32,884 bases of DNA from Thiotrichaceae bacterium (GTDB lineage: Bacteria > Pseudomonadota > Gammaproteobacteria > Thiotrichales > Thiotrichaceae). The stretch is from the NCBI GenBank assembly GCA_015486375.1, contig WFRR01000123.1, forward strand, positions 1 through 32,884. The letters run 5' to 3'. Below, piece by piece: positions 29,354 through 32,884 of this stretch. The notes under the pieces are model-generated. The model worked only from the letters and a program-made list of their open reading frames with translations, did not search any database and was not told the DNA's origin. The first letter of the stretch is position 1. Every line of letters starts with the position of its first letter. The translations under genes were made by a program, and so were the position numbers.

Positions 29354-29457
29354 CGGGTAGTACATATTTAAAATATGTATAAAAAAATAGCTGTATAGCA
29401 AGAAAAATTGTCTTTAATTTACAGTTCTTACCTATTATTGAGTAGTGAAACTACCCG
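29354..29457. repeat. 104-bp segment bounded by inverted CGGGTAGT ends
   Basis: CGGGTAGT (29354-29361) and ACTACCCG (29450-29457) are perfect inverted repeats. Inside, ACATAT and ATATGT form a small palindrome near 29362-29378. The segment occupies most of the mutM to zinc-finger gene spacer. It could be a miniature mobile element remnant, a structured RNA leader or chance; no clear target duplication is seen. Confidence 0.35.
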
Positions 29458-29479
29458 TAATTATTTAAGGATCATCGCA

Positions 29480-30055
29480 ATGATATGTTCAGTGTGTAAA
29501 GGAAGCGGAATTGTAGAGATACCGCATATACCTTCAAATAGAGGCGGTTGGATGGATACGAACTATAACTTTTCGGGCATCGAATGTGGTGCATGTAATG
29601 GTTCAGGTATACAAACTGAGCGTGAGGATACACCCTATCAACGATCCCGTTATGATCAAAAGGAAGCGACAGAAAGAAGTAACCATTCACTGACAGAAAC
29701 GCAAACAAATGAAACGGCGGATGTGCAATTAGAACGTGTTCTATCAAAATTAAGCATCTGTTTTAAGTATTCGCCCTGTTTTCCCGCTCAATTAATGCAG
29801 GTTTGGATTGATACACTGTATCGTTTTGATCTTTGGAAACCTGATGAAGGTTTGCACTTACTGAATGAATATGAAGCCGCCTTTGAAGAGCTAAAACAAC
29901 GTTATCGTCCCAGTCGTGATGTTTTTTCAATGAGTATTCATAAAGAAATGAGTTTTGATCATCATATTGCAGAAATCACCAGACATTTTCAATATCTGCG
30001 GAAATTGATGCTTTATCTGCAAGATTTTCTTAGAAAACATCCCAATGGAATTTGA
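29480..30055 (+). CDS. Small protein with two DnaJ-like CxxCxGxG zinc motifs
   Basis: The ATG at 29480 with an AAGGA site is chosen; a TTG at 29408 would add 24 residues without a better site. The 191-aa protein opens with CSVCKGSG (C3, C6) and has a second CGACNGSG (C36, C39). Together these can bind one zinc, like half of a DnaJ central domain. A polar, glutamate/threonine-rich linker covers about 45-85. A helical C-terminal domain with aromatic residues follows (FAQLMQVWIDTLYRFDLW-like stretch, then FQYLRKLMLYL). There is no J domain. Function is unknown; a chaperone-like or adaptor role is only a guess. It is the last gene of normal composition before the AT-rich region. Confidence 0.75.
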   Translation: MICSVCKGSGIVEIPHIPSNRGGWMDTNYNFSGIECGACNGSGIQTEREDTPYQRSRYDQKEATERSNHSLTETQTNETADVQLERVLSKLSICFKYSPCFPAQLMQVWIDTLYRFDLWKPDEGLHLLNEYEAAFEELKQRYRPSRDVFSMSIHKEMSFDHHIAEITRHFQYLRKLMLYLQDFLRKHPNGI

Positions 30056-30093: not shown

Positions 30094-30648
30094 TTAACAC
30101 TTTGAAATCATAGGGTTAGGCAGCTTAGATTGTATAAAGCTTACTTTATTTTTAAATCTAAAGGGTTTAATTGAATTAAAATAATCTAATTTAAGCCCTT
30201 CACTATGAATCTTCTTATCATATTCATCTTGGTTAAGATTATTACATCTATAAGGGTCTGATACAAAATAGCAATTAAAATTACAGTATTCTTCATTAGA
30301 AAAGATATGGCTGAATTTATTACCAAGAAAGTCATCAATGATCGTTTTGAATTTCTGTGCGATATTTTCTTTATTAAACCCACTAGGGCTATTTATCGAT
30401 TTTAATTCAATTAAATATAAATCATAGCAAGGCTTTTTATCACATTTTACTAAAATAATACAATCAACCGCAGGCGGAGGATTATGCATTTTCTTACTTG
30501 AATAATATTCATCAACTTTTAAGATAATGAGTTGATCATCGGCATTGTCTTGAAGTGATTCACTAAGACATATCTCGATATTATTTTCATTACAGTAATT
30601 TGATATGATTGGATATAAGTCTTCATCGTTATAAATTTTACTAAACAT
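30094..30648 (-). CDS. Putative PD-(D/E)XK-like nuclease, third gene of AT-rich cassette
   Basis: No named family is recognised. From the ATG at 30648 (AGG six bases upstream; a TTG at 30654 is the alternative) the protein has 184 aa. It shows a pattern compatible with the PD-(D/E)XK nuclease fold. E47 lies in an early segment (LKVDEYY), D62 ends the strand start PPPAVD, and E81-L-K83 lies in LYLIELKS. Q98 lies in the next helix (NIAQKFKTI). Hydrophobic strands flank D62 and E81 as the fold requires. It begins 7 nt after the stop of the ATPase gene, so the two are surely co-transcribed. The sequence is cysteine- and asparagine-rich and AT-rich. It could instead be a non-nuclease partner of the ATPase; the motif reading is inference. 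Confidence 0.6.
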   Translation of the reverse strand: MFSKIYNDEDLYPIISNYCNENNIEICLSESLQDNADDQLIILKVDEYYSSKKMHNPPPAVDCIILVKCDKKPCYDLYLIELKSINSPSGFNKENIAQKFKTIIDDFLGNKFSHIFSNEEYCNFNCYFVSDPYRCNNLNQDEYDKKIHSEGLKLDYFNSIKPFRFKNKVSFIQSKLPNPMISKC

Positions 30649-30655
30649 AAACAAC

Positions 30656-32044
30656 CTATGAATTCATATCTTTGATTAACTGCATTTTTTCATTGTAAAG
30701 GCTTTCAGAGGTATAGATAAAATTCTCATCTTCCATACCAAACTCATCTAACTCCATATCAGTTACATCACTGCCTAACGGTGTTTCTTTAAATAAAGAG
30801 GCACTTGACTTATTGGTATTAATATCTTTGGATATAACTAAGTTATTGAATTTATTAAATATATAGTTACTGTGCGTTGTTATAATAAATTTAATATCTG
30901 ATTTTGCTAGTTCAGCAAACAGTTTTAATAACTTGATTTGTATATCAGGGTGAAGATGGGCTTCGGGTTCTTCAATAATAATAAGGGGTTTTGCTTCTTT
31001 AGCCATATCTTCATTCTTATTTGAATAGTTAACGATATACCTTAGATAAGAAACAATAGGGGATAGCTCTGATACCATTGAGGAAGTATAGGATAAATCA
31101 AGCCTTAAATTCGTATTATTCGGTGCGAACATTAATTTTTTTGTATAATTATCAAATTTAATTTTTCCATTTAATAGCGTATTTTCCATTTCAGAAGCGA
31201 TTCTTGTAATTTTATTATCGATAAGTTTATCTCTAATCTGAATAGTAGATAGTTCTAAAAAATAATCACTTAAGGGTTCTGAAAGGTTCGGCAACTCAAT
31301 TTTTTTATTTATAAAGCGTCTATGTTTAGAGAGTTCAGCAATAATTGGACTAAAGGCATTGAGTGCTTGATATAAGCCTGATCGGGAAGCAGGTAAGTAA
31401 TGAATATTTTTCATTTTATTTCGTAACTCCATTGTCATTAGAGTGATATAACTTAAAATAAAACCCTTTAACTTTTCATGTGTATCATGAGTATTTTTAA
31501 TATGGATATAATTATTACCGTTTTTAAACCTAACTGTTATATTTTTATATGCTGTAGTTTCATCTATAAAAACCTTTTCTGCCACTAATTTTATATTTGA
31601 TATATATAATTCTTCTTTTCTTATACCGATAGCGATAGAAAAAAGATGCGTTTCTATCCCTATACTTAGACGCTCTCCTGATAGTTTATTTTCTAAATTA
31701 GGAATAGAACTAAATGTGTTTAATAATGATGCTTGGAGTTCAGTTAGAAATATTTCTTCTAAAATGATAGAAAAACCTTTTTCAACTTCAGATTTAATAT
31801 TACTTTTCTTATCAAAAATATCCTTATTATCTTCATAAAATTCCAAGAAATTTTCATGGTAACGGTAAAAAGAGGCATAGATATCAGGTGTACTCAAAGA
31901 CATTATATTCTTTATTATCAAATATATAGCTGACATCATATAAGACTTGCCCGTATTATTTCCTCCAAATATCATATTGAAGTTATTATCAAGGTCAAAC
32001 TTAAATTCTTTGACAATACCGAAGTTTTTTAATGTTATTTTCAT
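30656..32044 (-). CDS. OLD-like AAA/ABC ATPase without TOPRIM domain
   Basis: This is a single-ring or dimeric ATPase of the AAA_15/AAA_21 (OLD-like) group, often found in phage defence modules. The 462-aa protein starts with MKITLKNFGIVKEF and Walker A GGNNTGKS (27-34). It has HYLPASRSGLYQAL in the middle. Near residues 350-363 comes the joint signature/Walker B block IIIEEPEAHLHP, followed by the switch TTHS near 388. The middle (about 60-330) is a helical insert rather than a long coiled coil. It ends about 70 residues after TTHS, so it lacks the TOPRIM nuclease of true OLD or GajA proteins. An AAGGA site precedes the ATG. It lies between an SMC-like gene (17 nt upstream) and the nuclease-like gene. 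Confidence 0.88.
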   Translation of the reverse strand: MKITLKNFGIVKEFKFDLDNNFNMIFGGNNTGKSYMMSAIYLIIKNIMSLSTPDIYASFYRYHENFLEFYEDNKDIFDKKSNIKSEVEKGFSIILEEIFLTELQASLLNTFSSIPNLENKLSGERLSIGIETHLFSIAIGIRKEELYISNIKLVAEKVFIDETTAYKNITVRFKNGNNYIHIKNTHDTHEKLKGFILSYITLMTMELRNKMKNIHYLPASRSGLYQALNAFSPIIAELSKHRRFINKKIELPNLSEPLSDYFLELSTIQIRDKLIDNKITRIASEMENTLLNGKIKFDNYTKKLMFAPNNTNLRLDLSYTSSMVSELSPIVSYLRYIVNYSNKNEDMAKEAKPLIIIEEPEAHLHPDIQIKLLKLFAELAKSDIKFIITTHSNYIFNKFNNLVISKDINTNKSSASLFKETPLGSDVTDMELDEFGMEDENFIYTSESLYNEKMQLIKDMNS

Positions 32045-32061
32045 AGTTTAGTCCTTAATAC

Positions 32062-32884
32062 TTAAATATCATCAATCAAACCTAATTGTTTTGCCACCTT
32101 ATCTGATGGACTGAAATGTGCAATTATATATTTTTTATAGTTATTCAGAAATGTATTAGGAACATCATTGTCAACTAAAATAACTTGGCACGGATACCCT
32201 TTATCATTAGCTTTATTCACCACATTAATAATATTTTCATATATTTTCACATACTTATGTGGGTCTGATAACCTTTCTTTGGCATCTTCCTTGCTATTTG
32301 TCTCAACAAGATATTCATCTTTTGTTGTTTTTCCTAGATATTTACCAACGGTATCAATCATTAATAATCGTGGATGGTTGATATTATAGTCAATAGAGAA
32401 ATTTAGTATTCCTAGCATGTGACCGATTGAAATGATTGTGCGGAGCCCCCCCGATGTAATATTATAGTAATCTTTATCTCGGAATACTGGTAAAAAACTT
32501 TCTTTACTAATTTGTACACCATACCTATTTTGTAGATTAACTAATTTCAAATATAGATTTAAGAATATACCTAAAGTATCTAGGATATGATTTATATCAG
32601 GTGAATTTTCTTTTAGTTTTTTTAATTCTTCATTTAATTTATCAATAGATTTATCTATATTTTGGTATGAAGTATAAATTTCTTTATGCTTATTACGCAG
32701 TTTTATATTATTAGAATAGGATATTTTAACCTGCTCCAGCTTTGATATTTCCTTAATCAATATATCTCTTTGCATTAAATAAGGAGTAATCATCTCTTTG
32801 CTTTCAGTATCAAGCATTTCTCTAGCTTTACTTATATCTTTTTCAAATAAAACTCTATCTTTCAACATTTTTTTATGATTAAAA
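32062..32884 (-). CDS. SMC/ABC-like ATPase, C-terminal part (5' end outside window)
   Basis: The first internal Met is at 32868, but the frame stays open to the window edge with no stop. The true gene therefore begins outside and at least 268 residues of the C-terminal part are seen. Counting from that Met, residues 30-90 are lysine/glutamate/leucine-rich and probably coiled coil. TSGGLRT (138-144) resembles an ABC signature loop. PRLLMIDTV (166-174) resembles a Walker B strand, and VILVDND follows later. Walker A should lie in the missing N-terminal part. The pattern fits SMC/Rad50-like ATPases of conflict systems. It is the first gene visible of a leftward three-gene cassette. It is not a match to SbcC as far as can be read. 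Confidence 0.7.
   Translation of the reverse strand, partial: FNHKKMLKDRVLFEKDISKAREMLDTESKEMITPYLMQRDILIKEISKLEQVKISYSNNIKLRNKHKEIYTSYQNIDKSIDKLNEELKKLKENSPDINHILDTLGIFLNLYLKLVNLQNRYGVQISKESFLPVFRDKDYYNITSGGLRTIISIGHMLGILNFSIDYNINHPRLLMIDTVGKYLGKTTKDEYLVETNSKEDAKERLSDPHKYVKIYENIINVVNKANDKGYPCQVILVDNDVPNTFLNNYKKYIIAHFSPSDKVAKQLGLIDDI

Follow-up and report, generated by a model that had tools for sequence, protein, structure and literature searches.

The end of a Lamassu operon abuts a separate ATPase and nuclease-like gene pair of WonAB-like design in a Thiotrichaceae bacterium

The AT-rich cassette at the right end of the DNA analysed here (the window, 32,884 bases) is very probably a horizontally acquired piece of a defence island, in which the end of a Lamassu operon abuts a separate ATPase–nuclease module that likely has a WonAB-like mechanism. 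In this reading, the first module would belong to a Lamassu (ABC-three-component) operon whose assembled part is its very end, the C-terminal half of LmuB; the second would be a complete unit of two genes, which encode an ABC ATPase of the OLD family and a small PD-(D/E)XK protein. The original prediction had taken the three genes for one undescribed defence system. That proposal does not stand, since gene 3 corresponds to a catalogued Lamassu subunit and the pair is found separately, in dozens of genomes without Lamassu.

The window is the entire contig C123 of a 2.67-Mb draft genome. Three consecutive minus-strand ORFs, separated by 17 and 7 nt, occupy its right end (Table 1), and the ORF coordinates, together with the ATG at 30648, bear out the predicted spacing. 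Gene 1 has an alternative start at TTG 30654 (30094-30654, 186 aa); its homologues start at the position of ATG 30648, and the 7-nt gap between genes 2 and 1 is therefore correct. A ribosome-binding-like sequence, AAGGA, lies 5′ of the ATPase ATG. As the window is the whole contig, gene 3 is cut by the end of the assembly. The expectation of an SMC/ABC-like ATPase cut by the window edge was right about a defence-type ATPase, LmuB, but the cut is more than a matter of the window edge.

Table 1. Positions of the cassette genes in the window and of features at the loci used for comparison.
Feature	Location	Strand	Length or remark
Gene 3, LmuB C-terminal half (by profile and alignment)	32062-32883, open at contig end (to 32884)	-	273 aa
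Gene 2, OLD-family ABC ATPase (from sequence)	30656-32044	-	462 aa
Gene 1, small PD-(D/E)XK-fold nuclease-like partner (predicted)	30094-30648	-	184 aa from ATG 30648
CxxC-containing protein	L043:2198-2494		~97 aa
CxxC-containing protein	L047:7701-7991		~97 aa
CxxC-containing protein	L051:7671-7967		~97 aa
LmuA-LmuC-LmuB operon	Klebsiella record L012		LmuA 333, LmuC 174, LmuB 712 bits
LmuA-LmuC-LmuB operon	L172		prophage contig
LmuA-LmuC-LmuB operon	L175		genome G761

The sharp drop in composition is real, at 27.5% GC for the cassette against 39.2% for positions 1-30055, and the lowest-GC 2.8-kb stretch elsewhere in the window still has 32.7%. A GC content so far below that of the remaining window suggests a foreign origin. 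No empty insertion site was identified using genomes of the same genus. Between mutM and the cassette lies a convergent gene (29408-30055) with CxxCxGxG-like motifs and a weak match to the DnaJ zinc domain.

Judged from its sequence, gene 2 is an OLD-family ABC ATPase that has the ATP-site motifs and lacks TOPRIM, much as was predicted. A match to AAA_15 (87 bits) spans residues 2-395 of 462, and no profile match to TOPRIM was obtained in either the ATPase or the small partner. The motifs include a Walker A, GxNNxGKS, as well as EEPEAHLHP and THSNY, with PASRSGLY as the mark of the subfamily. Across 42 aligned ATPases, the Walker A G-x-N-x-x-G-K-S, R221 in PASRSG, S322-M323, E326, EEPExHxHP, and H391-S392 are invariant. 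The predicted structure (pLDDT 88) has SMC/Rad50 heads and PtuA as its nearest folds, with Z values of 14-17.

The small protein yields no significant match to PD-T4-4_B or to any other family in the libraries searched. Its predicted structure (pLDDT 91) has the PD-(D/E)XK layout, in which D64 opens one strand and E83-x-K85 closes the next (186-aa numbering), and over 40 aligned small proteins D48, D64, E83, K101, and F109 are invariant. Position 85, the lysine of ExK, is either K or R; since R occupies it in five of the 40 partners, activity may vary. One partner (L015:941-1483) has ENR as its ExK motif. The neighbours of the model found by Foldseek and structural alignment are mostly PD-(D/E)XK enzymes, chiefly restriction and defence nucleases (FokI, BspD6I, BsmI, HamA, Can2, McrC, and Hjc), at Z values of 4-5 and a best Foldseek E of 0.07. 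These scores are modest, and the fold assignment draws its support from three sources together: the motif, the model, and the agreement among the neighbours. Taken together, these lines of evidence point to a small, nuclease-like protein with a predicted PD-(D/E)XK fold, in agreement with the original prediction. A Foldseek comparison with viral models gave nothing significant.

What known systems does this pair resemble? In design it is closest to WonAB, PD-T4-4, and the operons described as ‘OLD-ABC ATPase + novel REase’. WonAB, from the WASA-1 prophage of V. cholerae, pairs an ABC ATPase of the OLD type with a PD-(D/E)xK nuclease, and both are required; the overproduced nuclease is toxic to cells only if the ATPase is active, and the system arrests growth through inhibition of translation, in an abortive infection that is independent of lysis (PMC12137116). 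Its authors connect WonAB to PD-T4-4 and to the ‘OLD-ABC ATPase + novel REase’ operons (PMC12137116), and a later survey noted OLD-ABC ATPases paired with PD-(D/E)XK enzymes beside BREX (PMC12839542). Like WonAB and those operons, the pair studied here has two genes, an OLD-type ABC ATPase without TOPRIM, a small partner of predicted PD-(D/E)XK fold, and examples in prophages, a likeness that is drawn from the published description of WonAB. WonB differs in being a 16.1 kDa protein with its key lysine at 71, whereas the window partner has about 184 aa and its lysine at 83 (ATG numbering). The spacing of the ATPase motifs is longer in the window, from K33 to E359 as opposed to K34 to E300 in WonAB, consistent with different inserts. 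A published WonAB primer sequence had no match in the viral contigs.

The resemblance to PARIS (AriAB), Gabija (GajA), and Septu (PtuAB) is in the pairing of an OLD/PtuA-type ATPase with a nuclease function. However, TOPRIM is found neither in nor beside the window ATPase, and the partner is by its predicted fold of the PD-(D/E)XK kind, not TOPRIM or HNH.

It could be proposed that the pair is simply a divergent PD-T4-4 in the strict sense. PD-T4-4 of E. coli shares with it the gene order, the OLD-ABC ATPase, and a partner of PD-(D/E)XK type, and PD-T4-4_A is the top catalogued match of the ATPase (best PADLOC match, 100 bits, 4e-29). In addition, a distant relative on a Bernardetia plasmid, an ATPase with a small downstream gene standing alone, is a clear PD-T4-4 by both of its proteins (332 bits to PD-T4-4_A, 46 bits to PD-T4-4_B). 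Yet the window ATPase attains about one third of the Bernardetia score, and PDC-M47A and AriA, at 92 bits each, are nearly tied with PD-T4-4_A. The window small protein is unmatched by PD-T4-4_B at E values up to 10. PD-T4-4_B matches one of the 40 relatives of the small protein, at E 0.004, and a profile comparison of the small protein with the Bernardetia partner is not significant. We therefore regard the strict assignment as unlikely, although it is the foremost competitor. Given the lack of a curated profile for the small protein and the weak PD-T4-4_A score of the ATPase, the pair is better described as a new sequence subfamily of a known design.

Relatives were collected by scanning a three-sequence alignment of the ATPase against genome and viral contigs, and the 46 strongly matching loci (E 6e-114 to 2e-53) were taken; some are closely related (e.g., L021 and L024), and the 46 are not all independent. 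An alignment was needed as the query, as a scan with the single ATPase sequence gave no relatives in viral contigs and single-sequence scans with the small protein gave none in viral or genome contigs. A partner of 165-206 aa lies directly downstream of the ATPase in 40 of the 46 loci, either overlapping it or at most 13 nt away. Broken or fused remnants of the partner occur in three more (L044, L048, and L051), the partner is absent from two (L023 and L029), and in the last (L037) the contig edge comes 34 nt past the ATPase. At L051:7992-9614, ATPase and partner share a single 540-aa frame that lacks the C-terminus of the former and the N-terminus of the latter, a fusion or deletion remnant. 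Effector swapping at L023 and L029 was considered and rejected, the next genes being, by eye, transporter-like and VWA-like and not of the kind expected of a linked effector.

The evolutionary distances of ATPase and partner correlate with r = 0.78, the maximum in 2000 permutations being 0.21; the two have evolved in step, with shared host ancestry contributing to this value. The subfamily occurs in genomes of Gammaproteobacteria, Desulfobacterota-type bacteria, Bacteroidota, and Lachnospiraceae, and in prophages; relatives of the small protein were found in no plasmid or phage records. The genes upstream of the pair vary from locus to locus; by eye, they are phage integrases or housekeeping genes with no relation to it. 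A CxxC-containing protein lies 8-24 nt upstream of the ATPase in three loci from Lachnospiraceae/Agathobacter (Table 1) and may be a clade-specific third component. A search for LmuB of the gene-3 subfamily found it at none of the 46 ATPase loci. The conservation of the pair is thus established, as are its gene structure, its conserved motifs, its predicted folds, and its independence from Lamassu.

Two further readings accept the pair as a unit. It could be proposed that the PASRSGLY-type pairs are a distinct defence family, missing from the libraries searched and with a trigger and a target of their own, and in the window genome co-transcribed behind Lamassu as a layered defence; the 17-nt gap permits co-transcription of LmuB and the pair in the window genome, but we think this proposal quite unlikely to be correct. 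A toxin–antitoxin module that stabilises mobile elements, rather than an anti-phage defence, would accord with a pair that is small, AT-rich, and present in prophages and beside integrases. However, in the work on the analogous WonAB a simple toxin–antitoxin scheme was put to the test and disfavoured, since the toxicity of the nuclease needs an active ATPase (PMC12137116), and this reading seems to us very unlikely.

Gene 3 matches the PADLOC LmuB profile PDLC03862 with 254 bits over profile positions 395-641 of 643, and alignment gives 40-50% identity to the LmuB C-termini in L011, L012, and L014. Profile and alignment thus identify it as the C-terminal half of the SMC-like Lamassu (ABC-three-component) subunit LmuB, and the locus resembles the Lamassu/ABC-three-component systems with a lipase effector (LmuA-LmuC-LmuB), from which it differs in carrying only this half. 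It has the ABC signature SGGLRT and a Walker-B-like LLMIDT. In the gene-3 group (the window, L012, and L014), the Walker B reads LLMIDT, FLMLDT, or FLMIDT, without the catalytic Glu; a Glu-to-Gln change at Walker B has been reported for LmuB generally, according to a review (PMC10586767). The IDT or LDT in place of the catalytic Glu suggests that LmuB of this type would hydrolyse ATP weakly or not at all.

Complete relatives of this LmuB are the last genes of operons that encode an alpha/beta-hydrolase LmuA, LmuC, and LmuB (Table 1); the hydrolase LmuA of L172 and of L175 also carries the ABC-3C domain CTD8. Judging by these relatives, a lipase-type LmuA and a small LmuC appear to be missing upstream of gene 3. 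Neither LmuA nor the N-terminal half of LmuB was found in the assembly; the contig breaks off within LmuB, and the control for LmuA matched nowhere. The absence of both parts is expected if they are located in the gap beside the contig end. Gene 3 might instead be a truncated gene.

With its short intergenic gaps, single strand, and uniformly low GC, the trio could be read, together with unseen upstream genes, as one composite system, a Lamassu with a second ATPase as sensor and a nuclease as effector, but this is extremely improbable, as the pair stands without LmuB in all 46 ATPase relatives and the LmuB relatives that are readable downstream, a small sample (L011, L012, L172, and L175), are not followed by the pair. 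The trio is not kept together across genomes, and each of its parts belongs to a kind already known. The original prediction could not match this exact trio, but the design of the pair had been described.

By analogy with WonAB, the dimer of the ATPase in the second module would close on ATP over composite sites and bind the small nuclease-like protein. The ATPase would sense something that phage infection produces or brings about and license its partner to cut nucleic acid, and this cutting would arrest growth and so abort the infection. Thus, the pair is probably an ATPase sensor controlling a nuclease effector in abortive infection, with complex formation, sensing, nuclease activity, its target, and the role in defence all proposed from this analogy.

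The annotation is corrected accordingly, from a proposed new three-gene system to two recognised modules. The pair subfamily is unnamed in the family libraries searched, while its kind is already known. Its remaining value is that of a clearly bounded subfamily within the young WonAB/PD-T4-4-like group, with invariant residues that are suited to mutation.
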